A stretch of 64,000 nt of DNA from Cymbomonas tetramitiformis (lineage: Eukaryota > Chlorophyta > Pyramimonadophyceae > Pyramimonadales > Pyramimonadaceae). Of this stretch, positions 917 through 63,000 are shown piece by piece (position 1 is the stretch's first letter; each line of letters starts with the position of its first letter). The position numbers were made by a program, and so were the translations under genes. The stretch is taken from NCBI GenBank assembly GCA_001247695.2, contig LGRX02027129.1, positions 1-64,000 on the forward strand, read 5' to 3'. Under the pieces are notes generated by a model that ran no database searches, was not told the origin of the DNA, and saw nothing but the letters and a program-made list of their open reading frames with translations.

Positions 917-3181
917 CTAAGAGGGCACTGTGATGACCAGTTCAAGCCCCCACTGCAGCGCGCTAGCTTCTCTCACCTGAGCCTTAGTCATGTGTCTCAG
1001 CTCTCCTCGTCTTTCAACTTCTTCTTCAGCCAACGCAGGCACAAGAGGTGCATCCCTCAGATGCCTTGCCATGGCCTTCTGTTCCCGATATTTCTTGCTC
1101 AGCACCGTGCGATGCCCCTCATTCCAATGCCCTGGCATGAAGATCTGCACAGCCTCAGAGAGCTTGTCCTGTCTTCCCCAATCAATCTGATCTGGCATGC
1201 CCAAGAACATGTCCTCCTCTTTCAACAGCATCTCCCTTGATGAGATGGCATGCCAAGGCTGAGACGTGTCTCCCTTCACCATCCGACGGGGACCCACGTC
1301 TGCTGGCAACAGGCGCATCTCCGCAGACAGCTTCTCATTCAATTGCTGCTCCTTCATGCCCAGTCTGTCCTCTAGGGCACCAGAGCTCTCATCTTTCTGG
1401 GTCTGCACCTCAGCGTTGGCGGCTTGCATCCCCGTGCCTGAGCACCTGGGACATAGCCACTCGCCTTCTGGTACTCCATCCAGTGCTGGGGTCAGACACC
1501 ACAAGTGGTACCCCCTGTTGCATGCGTCGCACAACAGCATCTCTGCTTCCCCATCAGTCTTCCTGCAAACTTCACATGCTAGGTGCTTACTGGGAACGGC
1601 TGCACTGCAGTCATACTGATCCTTCACCTGTAGGTGACATGGCGCGATGCTCTGCACGGTGCTCTTCTCTCTTAACTTGGTGGCGTCCTCAAGTACCACC
1701 ACACCATCTCGCTGTATCTTGACCAGCTTCAGAATGGCAGATTTGGTCGCGACTTCCATGCCGCTGCGAGGCTTCTGCCTGATGTAGACGAAATCGCCGA
1801 CCTTAAACTGGTGTGGACTAGGCTCATAGCCCCCACCTCTTCTCCCTTCATAATGTAATGTATCACGATGCTGTGCGACCTCCAGGCTGCAACCAGCGTG
1901 TACCATCAGTCGCCTCACCACCTGTGCTCTCTGGTGGAGGTCCTTGACTCTGGCATCCTTCTCATCTTCGACCTCAGCACCAAAATCTATGCTGGGCGCC
2001 CGTTTCAGATCAGGCGGCACTACTGCCTCTTGAGCAAACAACATGGTGAACGGCGCCACCCCCGTGGACTCCTGGCGTGCTGCATTATAGCTCAGCACTA
2101 GTGGCCAGAGCTGCTCATCCCACTCATAATCGAGACCCTTCTCCAAGGCAAGCTTCTTAAAGCAGAACTTCATAGTGCGTACCACTCTCTCGGTCAGCCC
2201 ATTGCCTTCTGGTGAGTCTGGCGAGGTGACTCGCCGGTCAATCAGGCAGTCTCTGCACAGCTGCTTGAACTCGCCTTCAAACTCCTTTCCTCCATCCACC
2301 AAGCATTCTGCCGGCGCACCAAACACAGCCAGTACATGACTGCGAAATGCCGCTGTGATGGTGCTCGCCTCCTTGTCAGGAATGGGCACGCAGATTATGA
2401 ACCTGGTATAGTGCTCGGTCATGATGAGCACTCGGTTGTTGCCAGACTTGGTCTCTCTCCTCGAAGGCCATGCCAAATCCAGCGACCAGCGATACATGAA
2501 CGACACAATCTCAAGGGGGGATAAACATGCCTCCTCTCTCGCATAATGAGTCTTCACACGCTGACAGGTCTCACACTGGGTGACCACAGCCTCCACGTCT
2601 TTCTTCAGATCGGCCCACCAATGGCGCTGCCACAAAAGATGCTGCGTACGTCTTATGCCCCAATGTCCAGTTCTGGAGTGGTATTCCTTTACCAACGCGA
2701 GACGGTCAGCAGGCTTAGGTATTCTCACCTCCTTGCCCGACATGGTGACCATGTAGATCTCATCCGTGGCCTCGTCCCATCGATGTCGTGCTGCTCGCCT
2801 CCTTACTCGACGAACTTCCTCTTCTGGCAACCTCACTCTACCATTGGACTTCAACCATCTAAGGCACCATGCATCATCGTGTACGTCTCGATGCTTGTCA
2901 CGGTCTGACTGCTGCTCAGCCACGCTGGCCATCAGGTCCTCGAATCTGGTGGTGCACGCCAACCTGGGGAGCCTCATCTCTGACTCTTTGGCAGGCGGAC
3001 TCCAGGCAGGCACATCCACGCGCGCTGCTGGGGTTGCGCCCTCCTTCACGAAGTGGTTCTCATGCCTCTGACGATACTGCGCCATGGTGTAGAGCTGCCA
3101 CTCTTCTTCTTCTTCTTCTTGGTTCCAGCCTTCTGTCGCTGGGCTCCAATTCCTTCTGCGCCTTTCTGCCCTTGCGAGCAC
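917..3181 (-). CDS. Integrase with C-terminal PHD finger
   Basis: A 754-residue retroviral-type integrase. It has the HHCC zinc-binding domain (H168, H173, C203, C206) and a DDE core (D235 in SLDLAW, D296 in LVDGGKEF, E331 in NGLTERVV). A basic linker with an SH3-like segment follows at about 470-520, then a C4HC3 PHD finger at about 533-585 (first Cys C536, LLCDACNRGYHLWC core). PHD fingers commonly read histone H3 tails, so it may direct integration to chromatin, as chromodomains do in chromoviruses. The N-terminus overlaps the methyltransferase ORF by 136 bp in another frame, and the overlap contains a GAA run coding for E in this frame and K in the other, so slippage or an indel there probably joins the two. 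It ends at TAG just before the second methyltransferase-like domain. Confidence 0.88.
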   Translation of the reverse strand: MLARAERRRRNWSPATEGWNQEEEEEEWQLYTMAQYRQRHENHFVKEGATPAARVDVPAWSPPAKESEMRLPRLACTTRFEDLMASVAEQQSDRDKHRDVHDDAWCLRWLKSNGRVRLPEEEVRRVRRRAARHRWDEATDEIYMVTMSGKEVRIPKPADRLALVKEYHSRTGHWGIRRTQHLLWQRHWWADLKKDVEAVVTQCETCQRVKTHYAREEACLSPLEIVSFMYRWSLDLAWPSRRETKSGNNRVLIMTEHYTRFIICVPIPDKEASTITAAFRSHVLAVFGAPAECLVDGGKEFEGEFKQLCRDCLIDRRVTSPDSPEGNGLTERVVRTMKFCFKKLALEKGLDYEWDEQLWPLVLSYNAARQESTGVAPFTMLFAQEAVVPPDLKRAPSIDFGAEVEDEKDARVKDLHQRAQVVRRLMVHAGCSLEVAQHRDTLHYEGRRGGGYEPSPHQFKVGDFVYIRQKPRSGMEVATKSAILKLVKIQRDGVVVLEDATKLREKSTVQSIAPCHLQVKDQYDCSAAVPSKHLACEVCRKTDGEAEMLLCDACNRGYHLWCLTPALDGVPEGEWLCPRCSGTGMQAANAEVQTQKDESSGALEDRLGMKEQQLNEKLSAEMRLLPADVGPRRMVKGDTSQPWHAISSREMLLKEEDMFLGMPDQIDWGRQDKLSEAVQIFMPGHWNEGHRTVLSKKYREQKAMARHLRDAPLVPALAEEEVERRGELRHMTKAQVREASALQWGLELVITVPS

Positions 3182-4839
3182 ATTATCCGCAGCTTCTCCT
3201 CCCAGTCGCGATGGGTCATAGTCTTCGCCACCTGCTGGGTGTACGCGTTCGAACTCTCAACCCATTCCGCCAGCAAAGCTTGCCTCTGCTGAAGGTCCGA
3301 CCTCTCGTGGTCTGCCCAGTTGTTGTCTACAGCGATGGGCTGTCCTGGGGAATTTTCCGCCTCTGGGGATTCCTTGCTGTGAGGGAGCCCCTTCCTGCTT
3401 GCTTCTGCGACCGCCATCAGCAGCTCCATTGCCCTGCGATCCATGGCCAGGCCCAGAATGCTTGCCAATTCTACGTCGTTCAGGCCATCGGCCATGCGTA
3501 GCTCACTTGCGCTGTAGCCCATGGCTCGCGCCTTCTCTTCGAGGTTCACTTCTCGAGATTCTTCCTCGGCGTCTTCATCGTCCTGGTTGCGCACCACGGT
3601 GCCCATCCTCGCTCTTCTGAACGCTCTTGACCCTTGCGTCGCCATGATGGTGGGTAGTGCCCTCAATGGTTCTCCCACCACGTTCACCACGTAGTGAGGC
3701 GCGCGGTCTGTCCTTATCACTGGCCTGGGATGCCAGCCCTTGCATATGATTGACGATACGATTCGTCCTTCTGGTCTCACCACCTTGCTCATGACGGAGC
3801 GAAACTGGTGGCTCTGGAACAAGTTGCTCCAATACGCTCGCAATCGATGTGCGTAAGCGCCTGCTTGTGCTGCATCAAAGGACACTGGTCGACCAATGAC
3901 GCTGGCAATGTACGGGAACACCTCGTCCCTGATCTTGGTTCCAGGTCTGTGTGACAACGGAGAAACATTTTCCAGGATATAGCCTGGAGGCCTCTGCCGC
4001 TGCAGCTGCTGGAGTGTGGACAGAAGCCTGACCACTTCATAAAATAATTTGCTGTGCCTGCCATCCAGGCCTGTGAGTGTTCCAGCAGGGGAGATATCCT
4101 GACATGGGAACCCACATACCATGACCCACTGGCGTCCTTGAAGAGCTCCTGCTCGTATGAAGTCGGCACTGGTGGTCTCGCGCAGATCCTGGGGTAGAGC
4201 CCCAAACTCTATTGCATGGGGCGAGATGAGGTCAGGGTATCGTCTTAGCAACGCCGTGCACCTGGCCCTGGCAACTGTCCGACTGCTCGGGGATATGTCC
4301 TGATACAGGTAGCGATCCACCTTCATCCCACTGCGGAGCAACATTTCTAGCCCAGCACATAGGCCTCCACATGGCTCGTAGCACACCACGCCTTCCTGCC
4401 GAGCTTGCGAGAAGAACCAACTGCCCAGCACCCTGGTGTCCACCTTCTCGGGCTTCAGGATGCGCTCACCTTCAAAGTACTCATTGCTGTACACAGCAGG
4501 GCTTCCCTCGCCGTGCGTACCTCGCGTCGGCCTGACCAGGCTCAACGCCTTCCAAGCTGCTCTGGCTAGCCTTCCAGAGTCGGTCACCAGCTCAGGTAAG
4601 TCAGTGTCGAACATGTCCCCATGATTGCATTCTAATTCCTCGTGGTAGTGCAAGTCGAACAAACGATGCACTGGTCCTGTGCCCAGCTGCTCCATGGCAG
4701 CCATCCTGCAGTAGTTGGCAACCTGCACCTCTGGCGTGGCCTCTTCCCCTGGGAAGGTATCCCCAGCCAACATAAAGCACAAGTGGTCACCGAAGTCCTT
4801 CGTGTGAACTTCCCCCACGCCTGCGTGTAACGCAGTCAC
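3046..4839 (-). CDS. C5-cytosine DNA methyltransferase within the retrotransposon
   Basis: A 597-residue protein with the ordered motifs of C5-cytosine methyltransferases: motif I at about 155-165 (EPCGGLCAGLEML), the motif IV PCQ loop with nucleophile C246 (GFPCQDISPAG), motif VI ENV at 290-292, and a motif VIII-like HRLR at 331-334. PCQ with ENV fits the DNMT1/DNMT2/bacterial type rather than DNMT3/DRM, whose loop is usually PCN; the clade needs a tree. The apparent start is GTG, but the frame stays open upstream toward the end of the RT-RNase H ORF, so it is probably a polyprotein domain reached by frameshift. The last ~45 residues run through the K-coding GAA run that overlaps integrase. 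The likely role is methylation of the element's own DNA or of target DNA. Such captures are known in charophyte and dinoflagellate retrotransposons. Confidence 0.88.
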   Translation of the reverse strand: MTALHAGVGEVHTKDFGDHLCFMLAGDTFPGEEATPEVQVANYCRMAAMEQLGTGPVHRLFDLHYHEELECNHGDMFDTDLPELVTDSGRLARAAWKALSLVRPTRGTHGEGSPAVYSNEYFEGERILKPEKVDTRVLGSWFFSQARQEGVVCYEPCGGLCAGLEMLLRSGMKVDRYLYQDISPSSRTVARARCTALLRRYPDLISPHAIEFGALPQDLRETTSADFIRAGALQGRQWVMVCGFPCQDISPAGTLTGLDGRHSKLFYEVVRLLSTLQQLQRQRPPGYILENVSPLSHRPGTKIRDEVFPYIASVIGRPVSFDAAQAGAYAHRLRAYWSNLFQSHQFRSVMSKVVRPEGRIVSSIICKGWHPRPVIRTDRAPHYVVNVVGEPLRALPTIMATQGSRAFRRARMGTVVRNQDDEDAEEESREVNLEEKARAMGYSASELRMADGLNDVELASILGLAMDRRAMELLMAVAEASRKGLPHSKESPEAENSPGQPIAVDNNWADHERSDLQQRQALLAEWVESSNAYTQQVAKTMTHRDWEEKLRIMCSQGQKGAEGIGAQRQKAGTKKKKKKSGSSTPWRSIVRGMRTTS

Positions 4840-4867
4840 CTTCTCCCTCTCATGCCTCGCTCCAGTC

Positions 4868-7531
4868 TCATCCGTCGTGGACGGCAGTCGGTGGGTAGCG
4901 AGACGGCACGTCAGCGTTGCTGTTCTTGGCGCCTGGACGATACTTCACAGTGAAGTCGAACTCCTGCAAACTGATTGCCCAGCGTAGGTGTTGCCCTTGG
5001 AGATCGGCCTTCTCCATCAGGGTGGTGAGCGGTGAGTGGTCGGTCACCAAAGTGAAGTGGACTCCATGCAAGTACTGCCTCAGTGTGCGCACTGCCCATA
5101 CCACTGCGAGCATCTCCCCTTTGAAGCTGGCGTACTGTCTCTCCGTTTTACTCAGGGATCGGCTGATTGCCATACAAATGTACTCCTTCCCATCATCGTC
5201 CTTCTGGCCCAGCACTGCGCCAATGCCATAGGTGCTCCAATCGGTGTACAATATGAGGGGTCTGTCATAATCGATAGGCCTCAGGCACCTCCCAGAACAG
5301 AGAGCATCCTTAAGTTCTTGAAGTGCTCGGTCTTGCTCCTTCCCCCAGGCTGCCTTGATGTCAGTGACCTCCTTTTTGAGCAGGTCATTGAGAGGGCGGG
5401 CCATCTCAGAGTAGTTTGGCCCCCCTGGCTCACCCACCAAGCCCTTATAGTAGTTCATCATGCCCAAGATCGAGCGGAGCCCAGTCTTGTCCTGAGGGCT
5501 TGGAAGCTCCTGGATGGCCTTGCATTTGGCTTCTTGCGCGCCAATGGAGTTGTGACCAATGCGATAGCCCAGAAAGTCCACCGTGGCTGCACCAAAGGTA
5601 CTCTTGCCTGCATGCAAACGGATGCCAGCGTCCCCCAAGGTGCGAAGTACGTCCTCAACGTCCTTCAAATGCTGCTCAGGCGTGGAATCCGTGTAGACCA
5701 CTACGTCATCGACGTACGCCACCGTGCAATGCTGCAAGTGCCGTAATTCGTAGTCCATGATTCTTACGAACGCAGAAGTAGCTCCAGCTGCACCAAAAGG
5801 CATCGAGGTGTATTGGTACAACTGATTCTTCCACCAAAACGCCGTCTTGCTCCTGTCCTCTTCCGTGGCCATGGGAATCTGGTGGAAAGCTTTGGTGGCA
5901 TCCAGCGTGGTCTTGAACTTAGCCTTCGCCACCTTCTGGTAGAGCTCCTCTGGTCGGTGCGGCAGCGTATTGTCTTTGAGGGAGTGCCGATTGACACCCC
6001 TGAGGTCCACGCAGAACCTCGTCTGGGTCCACAGGCCAGTCTCGTGATCTTTCTTGCCAGCTACGACCACGTTGCTCGCATGCCTGCAATGCTTGGCTGC
6101 TGGCTCTATAAAGCCATACTCCAAAAGTTCCTTGCAATGAATATCGATGATTTCCTGCTCGCCCGGACTGTACTTCCTGGGTCTCTGGTAGGCGGCCTTG
6201 GATTCGTCTACGAAAGGAATGGAGAACGTGTTGTGCTCCGCCTTGCCCTTGTAGCCTGTCAGATCGTGAGGACTGTTGGCAAAGGTGGTCTTGCACCTGC
6301 GAAGAACATTCCGCATTTCCTCCCAGTGCTCCTCCTTGAAGTCAGGATGTCCTCCAAACGTGGCATTGAGCTCAGTGTCGAGCCACGCTGCCTCGTCCTT
6401 GGTCACTATCGTGTCACCCAGAGGTTGAAGCTCGTCCAGCACGGTGTACGGCAAGACCTCATCCTGCTCCGCGACATTGGCCACCCAGCCCGGCTCCCAT
6501 TGCCTTGAGGATTGCTGAGCCTCCCAAGAAGTGCAGGGGGACGAACCCCAGGCGCTGCGTGTGGGTGACGTGACATCATACGTAGGCGCACACTCGGTCA
6601 TCTTGCCAGCGACCCACAAGATTCCGCACAAAAGCAGAAAAAATCGCAAAATTCGATTGAAATGCGCTGCGGCTACCGGCGAGTTCGAAGCGAAGAAGCA
6701 CGCCATGATTCTCCACCCCCCGTGCGCCAAGCGAGTACTCCCACCAGCAGCGGTGAAGACCACGACTGCAAGGACAAGCGCCATGTAGGCGGCTTGTGCG
6801 ACGCGGTGAAGGCGGAGATTGCGTCGGAGCTGTGTCCAGCGTGCCGCGAAGCGAGGCTTGTCCAATCTGGCGGGCAAAGCGGGCAGGCGCACGCGGCCCA
6901 ACAAGAAGACTTGGGACAAGCGCAGGGTCGGAACAGTCCATCCACGGCCATGTTGAACGTGACCTGCGTCCAGCGGGCAGCGCACGCGACAGGAGTCGTG
7001 GCACGCCACGTCCTCAGCGTAAATGTCGGCACAAACCCAAAGCCAGGCGAGGACCACGAAGAGGAGGGCGATTGCACACCGTGACCAGCACGCCAAGGAA
7101 ACGACCACCACCCGAAGGGGCATCACCATCCAATCCCCCGCACGCACACGGTGCACGCCAGCATAGATGCCTGCGGCGCGCACGATAAGGAGCCCAACGT
7201 ACCAAACGTAGGCGAGAGCCCATAAGACCCAGACGTCGTAAGATGCACGAAGGGGATAACGTTGAGCAGTCGACCACCATACGGGCAGCTGGCGCAAAAA
7301 TGAGGCCACGAAACGCCTCCACCAAACTTGAAAGGGGCACCACGACAAGTGCCAAGCTATTGCCTCCCACATTGCCCATACGGCGACCATGGGAACGGGA
7401 CCGCGTCCCAGCCACCACCAAACCACTGCACTGCCTGCAAACGAGATACACGCTCGCAGGACACCTGGCCTCAAGTGGACCGCCCGTGCAGGCGGCCCAC
7501 GGCCACAGCGTTGGTCGTTCACCAGGGCCAC
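4868..7531 (-). CDS. Multi-membrane segment fused to reverse transcriptase/RNase H
   Basis: An 887-residue ORF. Residues 1 to about 330 hold at least five strongly hydrophobic segments rich in W, V, L and A, with basic stretches between, that look like transmembrane helices. A linker follows, then reverse transcriptase (FCVDLRGVNRHS motif; catalytic YVDD at 606-609) and RNase H (YTDWSTYG at about 760; LVTDHSPL later). The ORF overlaps the preceding protease ORF by 13 bp. A membrane region between protease and RT is not a standard Ty3/gypsy arrangement; env-like genes normally lie after integrase. It may anchor the polyprotein to membrane, or be a GC-rich frame that happens to code hydrophobic residues. 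RT and RNase H are certain; the membrane domain is a reading of composition. Confidence 0.88.
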   Translation of the reverse strand: MALVNDQRCGRGPPARAVHLRPGVLRACISFAGSAVVWWWLGRGPVPMVAVWAMWEAIAWHLSWCPFQVWWRRFVASFLRQLPVWWSTAQRYPLRASYDVWVLWALAYVWYVGLLIVRAAGIYAGVHRVRAGDWMVMPLRVVVVSLACWSRCAIALLFVVLAWLWVCADIYAEDVACHDSCRVRCPLDAGHVQHGRGWTVPTLRLSQVFLLGRVRLPALPARLDKPRFAARWTQLRRNLRLHRVAQAAYMALVLAVVVFTAAGGSTRLAHGGWRIMACFFASNSPVAAAHFNRILRFFLLLCGILWVAGKMTECAPTYDVTSPTRSAWGSSPCTSWEAQQSSRQWEPGWVANVAEQDEVLPYTVLDELQPLGDTIVTKDEAAWLDTELNATFGGHPDFKEEHWEEMRNVLRRCKTTFANSPHDLTGYKGKAEHNTFSIPFVDESKAAYQRPRKYSPGEQEIIDIHCKELLEYGFIEPAAKHCRHASNVVVAGKKDHETGLWTQTRFCVDLRGVNRHSLKDNTLPHRPEELYQKVAKAKFKTTLDATKAFHQIPMATEEDRSKTAFWWKNQLYQYTSMPFGAAGATSAFVRIMDYELRHLQHCTVAYVDDVVVYTDSTPEQHLKDVEDVLRTLGDAGIRLHAGKSTFGAATVDFLGYRIGHNSIGAQEAKCKAIQELPSPQDKTGLRSILGMMNYYKGLVGEPGGPNYSEMARPLNDLLKKEVTDIKAAWGKEQDRALQELKDALCSGRCLRPIDYDRPLILYTDWSTYGIGAVLGQKDDDGKEYICMAISRSLSKTERQYASFKGEMLAVVWAVRTLRQYLHGVHFTLVTDHSPLTTLMEKADLQGQHLRWAISLQEFDFTVKYRPGAKNSNADVPSRYPPTAVHDG

Positions 7532-10500
7532 CCGCCCGCTGCGCCCGGGGAGCCCTGCTGAAAATGCGTCTGTCTCTGCGCCTCACGCTGTTCGTCCGTA
7601 TGGCGTTCGAACGCCTGCATCTCTGCGCTGCATATCGAAGCAGCTGGAGAAGGAGGACACCGCGATGTGAGATCGGCTGGCATCCTGGACGCTCTTGGTG
7701 CATGAACGACATGGGTAGCAGCCCCATGGCGATTGACAGAAGGGGCAGACGAGCGCGCAGCACCGCCCGCACCCGGCTGATGACGTGCAGGGGGGTCTCG
7801 AACCTCGTGCACATTCCTTCGCAAGGCCGTATCCATGTGTTCGGGTCTCTCGGCCACGTGAGCCTGACGGGCGGGCGGTGGCGGCGGCGGCGGCGGCGGC
7901 GGCGGAAGACGCAGCGCCTCCAAGGCCCCCAGGGCTGGCATCAACCACGGCGCGGCCGATTCCCTGGTTCCCCATTGCAAGCACGTGAACTTCCGGTCGT
8001 CCCGCTCGAAATACTCATTCGTGAACTCAGCGTGCCAAGGAAGACACCGCTCGTCCTCCAGGAAGATGTAGTACACGGTTGTGGCATTTGGGTGCGCCAT
8101 GCAGCGCAGCACGTGTGCCGCCCCAATCTCGACGTAGCGACACAGCGAGCACGCGACGTTCCTCCCATGACCCCCCGGCAACCTGTGCCCTGAGTCACGG
8201 TGCGACAAATCAGCCCAGGCTGAAATCATGGCCTCCAGGAGGCTGGAAGACGTAGTCTGTCCCCCAAGAGGGAGACGCCAGCCATTGTTCCCGCACGCGA
8301 TGGTCTTGTTATGCTTCTTCTCAACTTTGCTGGTGATGCCCGGATGTTTCCGCAGCCTGAGACCCCGCTCCTTGTTGCACACGCCAAGCTGGTACATGAC
8401 GCGCTGGCTTCTGCACCGATCATAGAACGTTATGCCAAACCGTATCATAAAGACAGTGAGGTTGCGGCGATCCTTCAAGGCTTTCACCTCCTCCACGGAC
8501 AGAAATTGGCACACTGAACTAACGGATGCGGTGGCCATTCGTGTAGCGTCCCAATCTGACTCTGCCGGAGATGGAGGCACCCTCCCAGGGGCCCGAGGCA
8601 GGCGACCTGCCCGCGGCGGACTCGGAGGCGTAGGAGGTGGGCCCCCCGAAGAAATTGATGGGGCATCACGCGGGACACGGATTGAGTCCGCCCACGAGCC
8701 AATATTGGTCCAGGCAGGCGATGCAGAGGGCGACCTCCCGCGAGGAGGGCTGCTGTCAGGATCTGACGAAACCAAGTCCTCGGTCCCATGGCTGCTGGAC
8801 GAAGGCGACGGAGTACGGCAGTACGCGATGTGCGCTAAGCGCGGTGGCGAATGGTCACTGGACCTGGCCCGAGACGGCCCCGCGACAGCTTGAGACGGTC
8901 GTGCAGTCTGCGACGAGCGAGGTGGCGAGTGGCTGCTGGACCTGGCTCGAGATGGCCCTGCGACAGCCCGGGATGGTCCTGCTCCTGCGGCAGGAGCAGG
9001 TGGCTGCGCAGGGGCTCGCTTCGTGAGCCTGAAGTTGACCATGTTGTTGGGCGGTGGCGGCCTACGCTCCGCATCTGCATCGAGTGCATCACGGCCCTGC
9101 TGCCTGGTGTTGGCTGCCTTGAGCATTTTCCTCATCTCCCCCAGGCGCACGTACTCCTGAGCAGCGGCATTCTGGGAGAACACCCTACCAGTTCCCCCAA
9201 GACCATCCCCCACCGGGTAGTACTTGGTGCTCGAACCCAGAGATATGAGCTCCAGAGGTGGCGCTACGTTGCCATATAGATCGTACTGTTGGAGGAAGCC
9301 AATCGAGAGGGACTCTATGTCCACCGGGCGAAGGTACCTGAGCAGCTGGTACGTCCAGACACCAGCGCTCTCGTACCAATGAGGGAGCTGAAGCTCGTTC
9401 AGCAACTCCTCACTGTTGTACACGCGTGCATGATCCAGCGTGCAGCGCATCAGCTCGAGGTGCTGCGTGGCTGCGCTCGGTTGTACACAGAGGACACGCT
9501 CCTTCAGATCCCACATGAGGGTGCCAGCGACCTCACCACTGGGGTACGTGAACAACTCCTGGAGCGTGTGCTGCAGTCGCTGGATTGAGTTGAGGCTGTC
9601 GAGCGCTCTGCCTTGCTCCCTGGGCTTGACGACGTCTTGCTTGTTGGCAGGGGATGGCACGTGTGTCATATAGCTCCCCTTGAGCACCCAACGGTCCTTA
9701 TCCTCATCGTGATCCAACTTCTGGTCCACATACAGCCAGTTAGGGGGCATCAGCTGGTCCACCATCACCCACTTCTGCTCGAGGCAGCGGACGAACTCCA
9801 CGCAGACATGCTCCTGGGAAGGTTTGGCTGGCATGTCCTCAGGAAGATCTTGAAGGATGCGGCAAAGACGCGCAACATGGTGCCGGTCCAGGTACAGTCT
9901 CTGATCCGCCCAGTTGTGGTCAAGACGAACGTCCAGAGGCGGACGAACCCCAGTCACCTGGCCATCGGTGACCCACTTCGCGCGTCCACCCACCCAGGGG
10001 TTTGGTGCTGCGTAAAGTTGTGCAAGCATGCGCTCCGACACTGCCAGCTCGGCGGGCGCCAGTAACGCCAGGTGGCTCCTTCGACCTCCTTCAAGTGAAC
10101 ATGTGTGAACGCGAGACCTCGCCTCGATCTCTGCGCGTGTGGCGACTCGGGGTCTAGGGGGCGCAGCAGATGGCCCTGACGAAGGCAGTGGTGACCCCAC
10201 CGATGACTCATAGCCGTCATGGATGTGCTCAGACCGAATCCCAGAGGCAGCAAACCTCTCCTTCCTCGTGCTCAGGGGTGGGCACCCTAGCCATTCGCAC
10301 TCCGTCTCCTGCCCAAAGATCTCCGATTGCAAACACACCACTGGGTCCATCCTCCTGGGCTGGTGAGGATGCTTGGGTGTTGTCATGTCGACCAGCGGAA
10401 GAACCACCTGAGCATCCATGCCCAAAATCGTCGGCGCATGCGACACGGCCACGCAACTTCCCAACTTGATGTCGATCATCAGGGAATTCTTCAACGGCCC

Positions 10501-45040: not shown

Positions 45041-48000
45041 TCAAACGGTTTGCAGCTCTGTAGGTGGTGGAAGCATGTCAGCATTTGCTCGCCACAAGGC
45101 ACATTCCATTCCTGCGCCGGGGCCCATGGTCACAAAGACACCATAGTCGCCCCTCTTGACTGTGCTCTCTTTCTGTAACCTCTCAAACGCTAAGAGGAAG
45201 GCACCAGATGACACGTTACCGTAGTCCCTCAAAGTAGAAACTGTGTGACGAACATCATGTTTTGTGATGCCGACTGAATACACCATTGAGTCCAGCACTT
45301 TTTTACCACCACTGTGAACCACCCAGTGCGTGATGTCCTTCTTGGTCATGCCAAATCGATCAAACAACTTGTTCAGCATGAGTGGCATGTGTTCACCGAT
45401 GGCATATGGCACATCAGATGTCAAGAAGAAGCTAAACTTGGTTGTGATCTCATCCCACTCCAAGTAGAGGGTATCCAAAGATTTGGGGATGATGTAGCTC
45501 TCATATCCCAGGACGTTGCAGTTAATGCGCCCGGCAGGAAGAGGCGGCGGAATTCTTCCCATACGAGGCTCTTCATCACATCGCACCACAGCAGCAGTGC
45601 ATCCATCGCCAAACAAGCTATTGGTGACAGCAATAGACATTTGTTGGGTGGGGTCCACATTATGCTGCCAAACATACTCTGCGGAGCAGATTTCAATGGA
45701 GCACATGACAGCGTTTTGACCAGGATTTGCAAGAGCCCAGTTGCTGGCAGCCTGCAGAATGTTCAATCCAGCATGACATCCCATTCCTACAATATCTGCG
45801 CGCTGGATGTGTGGGCTCAGGCCCATGCATTCCACCAGGTGGCAACTCAATGTAGGAATGAGGAAACCGGTGGAAGTTGCAATTGTCAAAAACTTGATGT
45901 CTGCACGTGTAATCCCAGCGCGAGCAAGTGCTTGATCAATTGCACGTTCTCCCAGGATCTTTGCCCAGCGCAGGTGCTTGTCTAGTAGATATTTTTGGGT
46001 AACAGCTTCGCCGCTCTGCTCCTTGTCAATGTCGGCAAGGTGACGAGTCACAATGTGTGAAGCTGTAAACAGGCTTCGCAATCGTTTGTCATGGATATTC
46101 AATAAGTCAGCCACCTCATGCTGTGTGTACTTGAACTCCTCAGGCACTGCTGTGCCGGTTCCAACAATGGAAGGCATGGGCCGATGCTTGACCTGCAAAT
46201 AGTCACAGTGCGGTCAGCTGAAAAGGCAGACATACAAAAAACATCCACCTTAGGAGTGCTGAGAGCTTTGTCAAAGCACTGTCAAGCCTTAAGGAGGCAT
46301 ATGACTTGGAATTCAAAAGTATCAAAGATGACAACCCTTGATTCAACTGTTTTATACAAAGACGTAATCAACCGTGAATGTGAATTTCATCAATGGAACT
46401 CACCTGGTAAAGCACACCTTCACTGATACGCTCCAGCAGCAAGTTGCCGTCACTTGTTCCACTGCCGAAGTCAATCACCTTCTTAGCGAGCTCCAGTGCG
46501 ATTGCCGGGCGTTTGAGCATCTTCCCTGCAAGCTCCTTTGCGTAGCCAACAGGATCACTCTCGGCATAATATTGGGCGACGCCCCAATCAACTGCTCTCT
46601 GCGCATTGATGACGTCCCCGCACATGATGATCTGCTTCGCACGTGCACCTCCAGTAAGGGCCGTGAGCCGTGTGCAGCCTCCAGCGGACGGGATGAGGCC
46701 GAGAGCGGTCTCTGGGAAGAAGCACTTGCATCCCTTCCCAACGACACGGACGTCGCACGCAAGGGCCCATTCCAGTCCACCACCACAGGCAGCTCCTTCG
46801 ATCACAGCGATGGAAACAAATCCAGCCTGCATGACACAGTTGGGCTTACGTGAGAATGGCACAACAACATCTCATGCATGCAGTGAGTGGGGAGTAACTG
46901 TAAACGTCGTAGCACAGAAATGATGAGAGCAATACCTGAGCAAGCTTATCAAATACTGCCTGCGACTCAAGATGAAGAGCATCTGCAGCAGATGGGTTTG
47001 AAATGCGCTCTTTGTCCGCTCCAGCACAGAAAAACCGCGGATCTGAGGATTTGATGATCACGACTCGTGCCGTTTCCTCCAACTTGACGATCAACTCGGA
47101 CAAGCGAGCAAGCATCTTTCCGTCATATGCGTTAGCCTGTCACCACAAGCTCTTCAACCATAAAGACCGTGGGATAGCAGTGACCAGACTCACCAGTAAT
47201 ACGACCCTTGCTCTGGGCACGTCGCAACACATGTTTGCTTACTCAAAATTTGTACAAAGTACAAAGACTAGCAGTACCTTGTTTGCTCGGTTGATGGTGA
47301 GCGTGGCCACAGGACCGTCAACCTCGAAAATCAGGGTGGAATCATCCAGCTTTTCAGAGCTGTACCCAGCCGCTGCCGCATCGGCGTAGATGGTGGTCAA
47401 GTTCTTCGGCCAGTCTCCCTGTGGCATCTCGCGGAGACGTTGCCTAATAATACCAGCGGACTTGAAACCTTTCACAGTCTCCTTGATGCAGTCAGCCTTC
47501 GCCAACTCCACCAAGGCCTCTTTCGAAGCCAACTGCAAGAGCAAAGGAAATACGTAAAGGTCCTGGTGCTTTTTCCTGACAAGGGTCAAATGTAATACAG
47601 GTCGTTGCAGGTGCAAGGCAGATTTTAACATATGAAAACAACACTTTGGTCTCTCATCTCGAGGCAATAAGGATCTAAGCGAGCAGGAAACTTTTGCAAA
47701 GCTGGTCAGGAAGCCTCCAGGATGATGTAAGACTAGCCGCAAGTGCAAACGGACATATACACACACCTTGGCGGAGGCAAAGTTGTATGCGAGGATGCCG
47801 TCAGTATCCAGAGATTTGCCAAGCAAAAGCAGCTCCTGCAGCTTGCCCATACGGACCGAGCGAACGGCTTCCAAAACCATGGCACTCGGAATTTTGCCCT
47901 CTTGCACTTCAGTCACCTGGTGAAGGAGATCGGGTCACATTTTAGGGGCAAAGCATGGGAGCAGAAATAACTGGCAAGCAAGGCCCGAAAAGAAATGCAC

Positions 48001-51000
48001 ACATCACATCTGTATATAAATACACATACATATATATACATGAGGAAGTACATGTATATTCGCTTGCACACACACAGCGGTCAAACAGAATAACAACAGG
48101 CCACTGCTGGTGGGCATACCTGCAGTTCGGTTCCATCCAGCACGCAAGGCGTGGAGCAGGCGAGGGCAATCGCAAGCCCGTTGCCGTTGACCTTGCCGTG
48201 CAACAACATATACGTTGGCACGTTGAGTTGGAAAATCCACAAAAGGAACTCATCCCACATGTCCATCAGCTCCTCATCAGCGTCTTCGGGGAACTCCAAG
48301 TCACACCCGCCACTGTGTCCAAGGAAGCACAGAGCATTCGCCGCCAGGTTGGAAGTCTCTTCCTTCAACTCCTGAGGACCACAAGATGACCTGTCAGCGT
48401 CTAAGTAGCAAATACAAACAACATATTTTGCAGCTCCGTGAGATCAGCGTGGTCCTCCTTCTCCTCTAAGGTTTTGTCTTATGGGAGTGCTCGAGTGACG
48501 ACTAGATGTTTCATGGTTGCACCCCTCCCCTTTTGCTCCTTGTTGGAATCGCGAAACGAGGAAGACGAAAACTGTACCTTGAGCAAAGCCTTCGTGATGA
48601 CAGGCTGGAGCAAAGTTACAGCCAACACGCCGGACTTGTAGGCAATATCCACGAGGCTTCCACCCTCTGCTGGGACTGGCGCTTTTCCGGAAATCCCGAG
48701 CTTGGTTCGGACTTTCTTGCACATCTTTATCAGACTAGCGAAGTCCAGGCTCCACAGTTCGTCCAGTAGACGACGCGTGTCCAGCAGCGCGGCGGTATTC
48801 ATAGAGCCAACCAGCGCGTTTACCTGCAAGGTAGTTGCCTCTCCCGTCATATCTGTCCTACGGATGACAGAAACCTTTGTTCTACGCAGTGGTGCTATTG
48901 AGACAATGAAGAGCTAGCTAAGTATCACGTTGCTGTGAGGGCGGCATTGGGCACACCTCATCCACTTTCAGATTTTGGGTGAACCCGATATCCGATAGCT
49001 TCGAAGAGGATGTGGAGGACATGAGCATAGTGTTGGCGTTCATAGGGGAAACATGCTTGCTCAACTGGAAGGTCATCACGCCGGGAAGCGTATGACGTGT
49101 TGGGAAAGAAGTGACCACTTCGCCCGCTGAGATACGGAAGTCGCAGGCGATTGAAAGCTGGAGAGCTTCTGTACTCGGGGAACCCGGGCCCTGGAGCACG
49201 GCCATGGTCACCATAGGCAGAGCCTGAATGAAATCCACAACGCGCTCCCAACGCAGAAACCACTGGATTACGGCGCGCTGTTTCTCTTGATGCGTGAGGC
49301 CGCCGTTAGACATGGAATCGATTAGCTCTGAGGGCACCAGGATGTTCTCCATCGCCATCTCGGTGGGAGCGATGCCCTGCAGAATATGACATCCGACCCT
49401 CCGTTAAGTGACTGGAGAACGTAACTTGGCAGCCATACAAAAAACTGAAAAGAAAAAACATAATACCAGGCCTACAAGCAAAAACCCCGGCTCCGCATCT
49501 GGCAATAACCCTGACCGTCACCTTCATGAGCAAGCGGGCCTATGCTGCGAGACGATCACAACTGAACAAGAGCAATAGTGAAAAATTGCGACAGGCTCAA
49601 GGCAAATTCAGCTATTTTTGTAGGCTCGTGGTGCAAAGAAAAGGACCCAGTGGGAGACGTCGGCATTCAAAGGAGCTTTCAAAAGATCGCATGGGCGCAC
49701 ACGTGCTCGGGTCAGCAGAGACGGTTAAAGCGTGCAAGTACATAGCACTGCTCTCAAGCAAAAGCGAAGAGACTGTAGCTCACCGGCATGTAAATCGCAG
49801 CGAGCTTGGGAAGCGCGCTGCACACCCAAGAAACAAAGCCAAAACTAAGCGACTCGACACAGCCTGCGCAGGCTCGAGAAGGTGGTGAAACAAGTCCTTC
49901 GACGCAAATAGTAACTTTCTTCAAGCGTTCCTTCCGTCTCACAACTACGTAAGCTAAGAAGGATCGTCAAACACGGTTACAGGCCAAGTTGAGGAGGCGG
50001 GTGTAGTGTGCTCAGAATATTATGTTTACGGTATGTTGTCTTAACGGAACAAAACAGTCGCCTGTCCCAAAGACACACGCTCCCTGTCCTAAACAAAGCG
50101 TGGGGAGGGGCCAACCAACCTGCCGGCGTCCTTAATCGCCGTGAGCATATGGTCGAAGCCTCCGAGGAGTTCGCGGGAAGGAACATCACGGATATGGGGG
50201 GCAAGATTGATCTCGAGGATTTTCCCTGGAGTGATCTTGATTGCGTCTTCCACACTCAAAATTGTGCGTGGCACGGTAACGTTATCCCAGGAGGTCGCGT
50301 GTTGCACGCACAAAGCGTTACACGCTGCGGCATGACCCTTCAGCTCAATCCTCTCGACAATGCAGCACCCGTGCACGAGACGGCGTTGCAGTCCCAAGAC
50401 TTGTGCCTTGGGAATCACCAGATCCTGTTTACAACAGAGGCCTTGTTTGAGTCGCGAACATAGACAAACAAGACTTGAAGATACAACTTTCTACAGCTTT
50501 TCGTTGCTCAACTTTATACGTTTCTCTTTTGCTTAAAGCATATTCAGCGCCAAGTAGCTCTAACGTTAGTGGCCTGTGCGTAACCTGACCTTTATGAATT
50601 CAGTCGTCGCGGTGGAGAGGTCGCCTTTAATTTCCGCAAAGAACCCCGAGCTTTTCATTTCCTCAAACTCCATGCAGGAAACGTATCCCAGGGCCTTTTG
50701 AGCAAGCACCAGCCCGACGTGCATGGAAAGAGGGGACATCGAGCACAGAGGTACGACTCCAGAGCCACCAAATCTGAGTATGCACGAAGGAAAGCCTGGT
50801 CAATGTCTTTTAACTAGACACGGAGCGGGTTCAGAGTAGCATTCAACTTTGTTGTGTATGTACACACATGTTGCTAGCGCATAACTTTAAGCGTCGGCTG
50901 TGTGTGCAGCAGCTAGGGATCAAAGGAATGCGGAAACTGACGGCAAGTAGTGCAGCACTCACACCAAAGCTATTTGAAGAGGTCAGGGCGAAGCTGCGTT

Positions 51001-51931
51001 GCGAGTGTATTACTGATACAATATCCCTATGAAAAGCATAAATATCACGCTGAGATATTAATCTACGGGCACTACAGTCGTTCTTTGCTTTTCTCGCCTC
51101 GTGAATCGGTAAGTCGGCGGCACCTGACCGAGACAAACCTCAACACGGCCAGGCGACCAAAAGAAATCCTTACCCGCAGAACCGCGTCGAATAGACAGTG
51201 AATATCAAGTCAAAATAGAGTATTCGGTTGTTAAAAAAACGGTATAACTTTTTGCGGTGTTGCGCAGGGTTACACAAGAAGATGCTGCTTGAAGCTGACT
51301 TGTGGAAGAGCTGGTGCAGCACGCGCAAGTGACGGGCTGCAAACCTACCTGGCAGTGAACTTGGCAGCTGGTGTAGCAAGACGGTAGTCAGAGGAAAGAC
51401 CCATGGCGAGACCCAACTGAGTGCGCAAAATCAGTTACTTTCGTCAGTGACCGCGCGAACGGCAAGGCATGCGCTGATTAACATCGTCAGCGTGCTGTGA
51501 ACGATAAAGCATGGGTATCACAAATCCTGTAAAAGAAAACGTAGGTTTTATGTGCAGGAACTTTTCCTGAGGACACGCTTCTCCTGAGTGCAAGTGACTG
51601 AACGCATGTATCAGTAGAAATGTACCTCGTGAAACTCTCCATCAAAGCAAGTGACGAACAGTAGGCGAATTTCTCTGAGCTGCCCGACCAATTTTTCCCA
51701 GCGAGCCAAAAGTCCCTCCTCGGACTGAAGCAATTCGTCTCCCAGTCCAAACAGGGGCACATCCGGGGAAACGCTTTTGATAAGCAAAGTTGTCACTTGT
51801 TCGCCTTGAGCTTTTGCGATATCTGGAACCTTCCGGACCACAGAGGACAAGCAAGCCACTGCTTCAGAGAAAGTATTCAGCTTTGGGATGATACATATCA
51901 CTTGAGCTCCCTCGTGAAACACATTCGCCAT
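45041..51931 (-). CDS. Four-crotonase / type III polyketide synthase fusion protein
   Basis: Thirteen exons: 51931-51626, 51416-51349, 50773-50590, 50424-50120, 49817-49784, 49376-48957, 48833-48579, 48371-48120, 47916-47767, 47532-47278, 47136-46936, 46826-46404 and 46192-45041. All introns are GT-AG, and the 4,005-nt join stays open for 1,334 residues. Crotonase-like segments cover about 1-190, 225-430, 525-655 and 715-945. The fourth keeps the oxyanion loop GAACGGG (821-827) and both catalytic Glu (E829, E849). In the second the equivalents are Q372 and T392, and the first and third also lack them. Residues 952-1334 are a type III PKS with triad C1090 (GMGCHAG), H1244 and N1277. The closest known set is bacterial DpgA (PKS) with DpgB and DpgD (crotonases), which make 3,5-dihydroxyphenylacetyl-CoA from malonyl-CoA; the product here is unknown. 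The ATG at 51931 is the first in frame before domain 1. The exon 5 acceptor was chosen because it alone gives a sensible joined frame. Confidence 0.88.
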
Positions 51932-61563: not shown

Positions 61564-63000
61564 TTAGCCTTCATAGGCAGCTATCATGTCTGCTGCATTG
61601 GTCAGCTCTGTGGCTTTGACCCAGGTGCCATGCTCAGGGCCATAGCCTGCATATCGCACTAAATAGTACTTGACACCTCTAATGATCTTATCTGAGAGTA
61701 TGTGTGATATCTCAAACAGTGGTTGCCCTTCTTCGGTGATCATCTGTGGCAGAGGCAAAGGTGCTTGGATCGAGTCGTTATACAGCTCTATTCTGGATAC
61801 AGGCTGTACCGGATGGATACGGATATCGAGATCTCCGAAATCTAACTCGTATGCACGTCCATGGCTTAGCACTTTGGATATGGTAAACGGCCCAATATAT
61901 GGTTGCTTAAAGTGTCTGCCTGCCTCTGTCAAACCAGTCCATTGGATAAACTCGGTCCGTAAAAGAACTTTCTGCCCTACTGCATATTGCCGAGGCATGT
62001 GAGTCTTATTGAATCTGGCTTGGCTAATTTCTGCTGCTCGGGAAATGTTGTCTACCGCGTTGGCATGTACAGCCGAGTACTGGTCAAAATGATCTCGAAT
62101 AGCATTCTGTATTGGAACAGGAGCTTCTGGCGGAATATGATTGCCAGGTCATGAGGCGAAAGTGGCTGCGCCATCGAGTCGAGATAAAATGGTGAATAAC
62201 CAGTAGTTGCAGAAACTGTGTTGTTAATTGCAAACTCCACCAGAGGCAACTTGTCCTCCCACGAATTGGTTGAAGTATCATTGCAACAACACCTGTGGAG
62301 AAAAATACTATCTAATCAGTTTATAAACCAGAGGATGGTGAATCATGCATCAACAAATTGAAAAATACCTGAGGATGTCCTCAATGAAGGCATGGCTCCT
62401 CTCATTGCTTGCATTCGACTGTGGATGGTGTGAAGACGTCATAGACAATCTCGTACCAGCAGATTTCCACAGTGTTTGCCAGAATGTAGAGGTAAATATG
62501 GGGTCTCGATCTGAGATGATGTTCCTCGGAAGACCATACCCATGGAGCTTGAAGATATGCTGCATATATATCGAAGCAGTATGCTGAGCAGTCCAGGTCA
62601 TGCTGAAGGGAATGAGATGACAGCGATGAGAGAATTGGCACATTACCACAAAAATACTGTCGTGCCCATTAGTGGTGATAGGCAGGTCAGTAATCCAGTC
62701 AAGAGATACATCAAGCCATTTTGTCTTAGGCACACAATATCGTATATGTGACTGACCATAGGGTTTGTGTCTCCTCGTTTTCTGGCGTTGACACACGGGG
62801 CACTCCCGAATGTACTGGATGGCTGCCCTCGTCATTCCTGGCCAATAATATCGGCTACGCAATAGATGAAGCATGCGATTTTTGCCTACATGACCAGAAA
62901 TAGTGGCTGAGTGGCACTCATGAAAAAGAATGTGGCGAAGCTGTGTGATCTCACCGTCATCTGTAGGGACCTTGGCTATTAGGGCTGAATAAGCGAGCCC
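61564..63000 (-). pseudogene. Chromovirus integrase with chromodomain and one intron
   Basis: The zinc-binding HHCC part starts near 63000 (HECHSATISGHVG; CPVCQRQK). The DDE core has DVSLDWITDLP, IISDRDPIF and SNERSHAF. A 76-bp GT-AG intron (62368-62293) splits the core end; removing it joins EDILR to CCCNDTSTNSWEDKLPLVEF, the expected integrase continuation. Near 62150 a frameshift breaks the frame. The C-terminal part (61998-61564) has the GPF-type segment YIGPFTISKVL and ends in a chromodomain (LVRYAGYGPEHGTW). The chromodomain would bind methylated histone H3 during integration. The frameshift makes this copy inactive. Confidence 0.85.
62293..62368 (-). other. 76-bp spliceosomal-type intron in integrase
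   Basis: The donor CAG|GTATTTTT and acceptor TTTTTCTCCACAG|GTG flank it, and the coding frame is restored by its removal. It contains in-frame stops. Introns inside a retroelement coding region are unusual because the element copies through RNA. Confidence 0.7.

Follow-up and report, generated by a model that had tools for sequence, protein, structure and literature searches.

A crotonase–type III polyketide synthase fusion of the DpgA clade in the prasinophyte alga Cymbomonas tetramitiformis

The closest described relatives of the gene reported here, CYMTET_40793, are the bacterial Dpg proteins of glycopeptide biosynthesis. According to the sections of PMC5132015 that cover these steps, DpgA converts four malonyl-coenzyme A (CoA) units into (3,5-dihydroxyphenyl)acetyl-CoA (DHPA-CoA), DpgB and DpgD raise the efficiency of this reaction, and DpgC is the dioxygenase of the following step; the corresponding part of PMC3849588 agrees, and in both sources DpgA chemistry serves bacterial natural products. 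Three annotated bacterial records carry dpgA, dpgB, and dpgC as separate genes, and the one stretch that shows dpgD has it as a separate gene too, which bears out the initial annotation of our sequence in treating bacterial DpgA, DpgB, and DpgD as separate proteins. CYMTET_40793 lies in a 64,000-nucleotide stretch of Cymbomonas tetramitiformis DNA (contig LGRX02027129.1, positions 1 to 64,000; hereafter the window). It encodes one chain that runs, from N to C terminus, through three degenerate crotonase domains (c1, c2, and c3), an active-site-intact crotonase (c4), and a type III polyketide synthase (PKS) held in a single exon. From its sequence, we consider it probable that this protein is a single-chain Dpg-type resorcinol synthase, derived from bacterial Dpg-type genes that were transferred and fused, with DHPA-CoA or a close resorcinol as its product.

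CYMTET_40793 is confirmed as a real gene. It occupies 51931..45041 on the minus strand from start codon to stop codon, with 13 exons spliced in frame across 12 introns (109–575 bp, 12 of 12 GT-AG), and the joined frame of 1,331 residues is identical to the deposited protein P0121, a hypothetical protein of C. tetramitiformis. The initial annotation had the coordinates, the 13 exons, and the phases (0, 2, 0, 2, then 0) right, but its length of 1,334 residues was three too many. It had also assumed a charophyte host, an origin ruled out by the identity with a protein of Cymbomonas, a prasinophyte of the Chlorophyta (Pyramimonadophyceae). A Pfam search of the whole chain, made with an earlier 1,327-residue gene model that lacked the exon 5 micro-exon, returned ECH_1 in three stretches (E 7e-43) along with the two halves of chalcone synthase (CHS). 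The NCBIfam and Pfam scans of the Cymbomonas crotonase pieces described below also used pieces from the model without the micro-exon.

The PKS domain (residues 949–1331) fills exon 13 (45041..46192, minus strand) together with the stop codon, and two trees place it in the DpgA clade. In the first tree (67 rows), the Cymbomonas PKS and 11 other eukaryote-type rows form one clade (support 100/99), beside which stand 40 other DpgA-type rows, the organism-named ones all bacterial and four of them dpgA genes (three annotated, one called from an unannotated record). This DpgA clade is separated (100/100) from 15 other type III PKS rows, three of them plant-type enzymes and another three rows from the Cymbomonas genome's own paralogues. 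The 67 rows were drawn from 142 prepared, with single-domain homologues numbered P0021 and up kept only if the number was divisible by four and homologues of at least 430 residues omitted unless cut down to the PKS part. The second tree (55 chosen rows, mixture model) gave the same picture, with a eukaryote-type clade of 19 rows (100/99) within the DpgA diversity and weak deep DpgA forks (bootstrap 83–84). Several outgroup rows in these trees were long-branched, and seven outgroup rows were fragments of PDB chains. The domain clusters with annotated dpgA, away from the CHS, RppA, PhlD, and PKS18 types, as the initial annotation had anticipated, and a CHS-like PKS is ruled out by both trees.

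Against the NCBIfam DpgA equivalog model (NF042429), the PKS domain scored 389.1 bits (E 1.5e-116) over 360 aligned residues, compared with 84–129 bits for three other type III PKSs. Its relatives P0004 and P0188 scored 378 and 262 bits, and the partial sequences P0007, P0009, and P0019 scored 371, 351, and 359. The Cys-His-Asn set of type III PKSs is intact, at Cys1087 (codon 45776–45778), His1241 (codon 45314–45316), and Asn1274 (codon 45215–45217), all on the minus strand within exon 13; we take these residues to be the catalytic triad. The motifs HSGGKKV and NSLFGDG are common to the Cymbomonas PKS and the dpgA rows and are missing from the outgroup rows shown.

The fusion itself is conserved, with metagenomic relatives sharing the domain order. 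We term these relatives eukaryote-type because they share a clade with Cymbomonas and, in some cases, because their predicted frames appear to read through introns. The uninterrupted frame of P0136 (1,305 residues, 32 member sequences) spans c1 to c4 and stops within the first part of the PKS, and P0122 (1,126 residues) covers the chain from c2 to the end of the PKS. P0003 and P0133 are c4-PKS; P0123, P0134, P0135, and P0137 contain c4, complete or in part, along with a PKS that is either incomplete or leaves the frame; and P0002, P0005, and P0006 have the end of c4 followed by the PKS. Relatives that cross the c4/PKS joint in one frame, together with the match between the spliced model and the deposited protein, uphold the single-chain gene. 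The initial claim of a new architecture stands as regards a single-chain fusion, which recurs in metagenomic relatives and is not unique to this alga. The c4/PKS boundary falls at intron 12 (46193..46403, minus strand, phase 0), after exon 12 with the conserved c4 C-terminal joint ERISEGVLYQ. The joint pattern ER-x-x-[EA]-x-x-LY occurs in 14 of the 15 eukaryote-type proteins tested (P0006, with a T inside the pattern, was missed) and is also C-terminal in all four bacterial enoyl-CoA hydratase (ECH) proteins tested. Because these four end in the joint pattern, the fusion resembles an ECH gene with its end attached to the beginning of a dpgA gene. A structure model of P0122 was too poor to use (mean pLDDT 44, pTM 0.33). 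We also observed a metagenomic protein of 821 residues, P0188, with a fast-evolving DpgA-clade PKS and a long N-terminal part that may hold two very degenerate crotonases; against crotonase profiles, this part reached a probability of at most 30%.

Domain c4 (about residues 722–948) is encoded on the minus strand by exon 10 (47278..47532, residues 656–740), which also carries the c3/c4 linker; exon 11 (46936..47136, residues 741–807), with the motif FFCAGAD; and exon 12 (46404..46826, residues 808–948), with the c4 core and the joint. It keeps both active-site glutamates, Glu826 and Glu846, as well as CAGAD and GGG, as an enoyl-CoA hydratase should. We assume that these glutamates and the oxyanion motifs have their usual roles. 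In the crotonase tree, its nearest kin are c4 of other eukaryote-type proteins and the bacterial hydratases P0215, P0219, P0222, and P0228, and its hhalign scores were 460 for bacterial ECH, 151 for DpgD, 102 for DpgC, and 89 for DpgB. The DpgD-type partner proposed initially must therefore be given up: c4 is not closest to DpgD and belongs to another bacterial ECH lineage, with a true DpgD ruled out by the tree, by the profile scores, and by a DpgD match below cut-off. A DpgC domain (NF042432) was not found at E 0.01 in the four crotonase pieces (for c4, among the best 25 of 72 families), a search that covered the chain itself. Profile probabilities against DpgC were 0.08% for c1, 1.3% for c2, 4.8% for c3, and 98% for c4, whose DpgC score nevertheless lay below those for DpgD and bacterial ECH. 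Neither the NCBIfam scan nor the profile comparison supports a DpgC inside the chain.

The three degenerate crotonases are spread over the first nine exons, all on the minus strand. Exon 1 (51626..51931, residues 1–102) carries the start ATG and the N-terminal part of c1, which has its core in exon 2 (51349..51416, residues 103–124) and continues through exon 3 (50590..50773, residues 125–186) into exon 4 (50120..50424, residues 187–287), where c2 starts. Within c2 lies exon 5 (49784..49817, residues 288–299), a 34-bp micro-exon also present in the deposited protein, followed by the degenerate DpgB-like core in exon 6 (48957..49376, residues 300–439), which matched NCBIfam DpgB at E 7e-7, under the cut-off. 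Exon 7 (48578..48823, residues 440–521) forms the c2/c3 linker, and exons 8 (48120..48371, residues 522–605) and 9 (47767..47916, residues 606–655) encode c3.

Among the DpgB, DpgC, DpgD, and bacterial ECH profiles, DpgB was the best hhalign match of both c1 (74) and c2 (86). By comparison, 30 column shuffles each of c1, c2, and c3 reached a maximum of 21 against DpgB. Matches of c3 were weak (bacterial ECH 57, DpgD 50, DpgB 42). With the domains cut out, Pfam alone gave sub-threshold matches for c1 and c3 and none for c2, and the pieces with c1, c2, and c3 scored 28, 29, and 20 bits against NCBIfam DpgB (NF042431), below its cut-off of 140 bits. In P0136, three DpgB stretches were first taken as c1–c3, but once the domains were cut apart DpgB was the best NCBIfam match of c1 (36 bits) and c2 (45 bits) only, and c3 as a third DpgB was rejected. 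At the two glutamate sites, Cymbomonas has Ala/Phe in c1, Gln/Thr in c2, and Ala/Glu in c3; the first site is Asp in all four bacterial DpgBs compared, whose second site is Asp, Val, Trp, or Val. With DpgB as best match and no catalytic glutamates, c1 and c2 fit the description of DpgB-like pseudo-crotonases, and c3 does not. The likeness to DpgB suggested in the initial annotation is limited to these two domains. Best identities were 22%, 33%, and 24% for c1, c2, and c3, vs 55% for c4. Even so, each of the three Cymbomonas domains pairs with its own counterparts in distant relatives (97/88, 92/83, and 99/96, the c1 and c3 joins including long branches), and for this reason the crotonase tandem seems older than the split of the Cymbomonas and metagenomic lineages.

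If CYMTET_40793 is a single-chain Dpg-type resorcinol synthase, its DpgA-type domain would condense malonyl-CoA units on Cys1087 with the help of His1241 and Asn1274, using four units if it is DpgA-like. The tetraketide would then be cyclized, with dehydration and aromatization helped in cis, and c4 could act in cis as a catalytically intact enoyl-CoA hydratase. The pseudo-crotonases c1 and c2 and the further degenerate crotonase c3 may serve as a scaffold or help to shape the product. DHPA-CoA or a close resorcinol thioester, made from malonyl-CoA, would be the likely outcome; dihydroxyphenylglyoxylate is not expected because the chain has no DpgC domain. As to origin, the most likely course is that an algal ancestor acquired bacterial ECH and dpgA genes, which were then fused.

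Several observations weigh against this proposal. The PKS falls under NCBI's curated DpgA cut-off (389 vs 425 bits), whereas P0010 reaches 534, and product equivalence with DpgA is therefore not assured. The residue after the catalytic Cys is His, at a position where Asn predominates among DpgA-type proteins: of the 191 (out of 232) that carry the motifs, 24 have His and 167 Asn, with five of the His-carriers (P0099, P0119, P0148, P0168, and P0172) outside the eukaryote-type clade. Domain c4 is not a DpgD equivalog (c4 of P0122 scored 128 bits vs a cut-off of 400 for NF042430), the 25 best of 72 families for Cymbomonas c4 did not include DpgD, and c4 is outmatched against DpgD by four ordinary hydratases of Cymbomonas, so that c4 is DpgD-like by role at most. 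It also matches DpgB (89) as strongly as c1 and c2 do, which makes the DpgB match of these two domains not exclusive. The best match of c3 is not DpgB, c3 of P0136 had no NCBIfam match at E 0.01, and c3 keeps one glutamate, at the second site in Cymbomonas and at the first in P0122 and P0136. At the first glutamate site, c2 carries Gln in three of three rows, like DpgC in four of four, with a profile probability against DpgC of only 1.3%. Finally, no biosynthetic neighbors were recognized among 18 of the 75 outside frames (at least 130 residues) and four frames of 64–84 kb, in a scan of open frames that many-intron genes would escape.

Some of these observations could be explained by the same fused enzyme performing other chemistry, in which a different starter or cyclization leads to another aromatic or a pyrone and c4 hydrates or dehydrates that intermediate. 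We regard this as possible but doubtful. The sub-cut-off DpgA score, the changed residue beside the nucleophilic Cys, the non-DpgD lineage of c4, and the stem of the eukaryote-type clade, which is long in the two PKS trees (0.37 and 0.77 changes per column), all agree with it. However, a PKS that aligns to the DpgA model over 360 residues, shares HSGGKKV and NSLFGDG with the dpgA rows, and retains the DpgB-like c1 and c2 in its own chain argues for Dpg-type chemistry. That the functional unit might be c4-PKS alone, with c1–c3 decayed or purely structural, would fit the loss of both glutamates from c1 and c2 and of one from c3, as well as the fast divergence of all three domains relative to c4. 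Yet c1, c2, and c3 each retain recognizable counterparts in distant relatives, and DpgB also lacks the glutamates while raising DpgA activity (PMC5132015, in its part on these proteins), and we consider such decay improbable. It is very unlikely that gene prediction joined at least two neighboring genes, one for a crotonase protein and one for a PKS. The PKS does stand alone in one exon with an ATG near its start, and the fused model is known here from gene prediction, but P0003, P0122, P0133, and P0136 cross the c4/PKS joint in one frame and the joint sequence is conserved. The Cymbomonas gene models were made by BRAKER2 with transcriptome data as hints (PMC10675990), which also speaks against an artefact, although the part of that paper describing them states no support for CYMTET_40793 itself. 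Its assembly (914.3 Mb, 35,945 scaffolds) differs from the one here (851.7 Mb, 25,745 contigs), and the CYMTET_40793 model does not necessarily come from that annotation.

More speculatively, and we think on balance improbably, the protein could represent a new class of eukaryotic type III PKS. Three degenerate crotonases, perhaps arranged as an intrachain crotonase-type trimer, and an active hydratase would then guide the poly-beta-keto chain that a DpgA-type ketosynthase builds, possibly toward a product unlike DHPA-CoA. If so, marine algae would gain a flavonoid-independent route to resorcinol metabolites.

Among the scanned neighbor frames, those whose Pfam matches exceed the cut-off resemble retroelements. 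Pol frames of retroelements, with additional PHD, chromo, C5 DNA methylase, and Dam-like matches, lie at 920–7582 and 61567–63000 (minus strand) of the window and at L027:1475–7891 (minus strand); the C5 DNA methylase match is over cut-off in the window and below it in L027. Some algae are known to have retroelements that contain DNA methyltransferases. Carriage of CYMTET_40793 by a giant virus is unsupported, as a scan of viral contigs with two peptide patterns gave four matches and no relative. A prokaryote genome scan returned a single match of 26 residues in a Thorarchaeota metagenome-assembled genome, which was not used.

Other type III PKSs occur in Pyramimonadales, as follows from three homologues in Pyramimonas parkeae transcripts, placed with land-plant CHS/STS in the relevant part of PMC7284882. 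Within our own data, one open frame of 4,875 residues (L009/L010; G000:C25413, minus strand, about 17.8–32.4 kb) consists of six 791-residue repeats with two type III PKS-like domains each, ends in a hydrophobic segment, and groups weakly with Steely1 (87/36). This frame either encodes 12 thiolase-fold domains as a tandem polyprotein or results from an assembly artefact. Uninterrupted frames of 470–476 residues on G000:C2907, C8540, and C1224 (L011, L012) are divergent and type III PKS-like, and the PKS tree placed the C2907 frame outside the DpgA clade. For Cymbomonas biosynthetic clusters, the passages of PMC7073580 that treat them give counts and not products. A plant-wide survey considered the type III PKS signatures of Chlorophyta to lie outside the normal length range and to be probably neither complete nor functional, with Cymbomonas unnamed in the portion concerned (PMC8133574). 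CYMTET_40793 shows how an unusually long chlorophyte type III PKS can be intact in sequence. No eukaryotic DpgA or crotonase–type III PKS fusion was found in literature titles and abstract starts among the matches listed, a scope that leaves out most subscription papers. In CYMTET_40793, a chlorophyte has a DpgA-clade enzyme joined to DpgB-like helpers in a single covalent chain. Such a chain fixes the domain ratio, and a construct based on it could probe the stoichiometry and role of DpgB-type crotonases.

Compared with the glycopeptide DpgA/DpgB/DpgD system, the algal protein shares a DpgA-clade PKS with Cys-His-Asn, glutamate-less DpgB-like domains (c1 and c2), and an active-site-complete crotonase. 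It differs in being one eukaryotic polypeptide rather than separate proteins, in having two DpgB-like domains along with an unclassified c3 and a c4 of another ECH lineage, in lacking a DpgC domain, and in domain scores below the curated DpgA, DpgB, and DpgD cut-offs. Homologues of DpgA-B-C-D outside glycopeptides, as in the alga, are described in the relevant part of PMC5132015 as VemA-D and Ken2-7, for the venemycin and kendomycin starter units, but these are separate bacterial proteins with DpgC included. Another natural DpgA fusion, the metagenomic P0124 (871 residues), likewise has its PKS at the C terminus of one frame; its partner is a dihydroxyphenylglycine transaminase, and its PKS groups with annotated bacterial dpgA rows. 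Steely PKS of Dictyostelium (PDB 2h84) is, like the algal chain, a eukaryotic protein of several domains with a type III PKS at its end. Steely is a fusion of a type I fatty acid synthase (FAS) and a type III PKS, its partner being a type I FAS-like module, and unlike the algal PKS, it falls outside the DpgA clade in both PKS trees.

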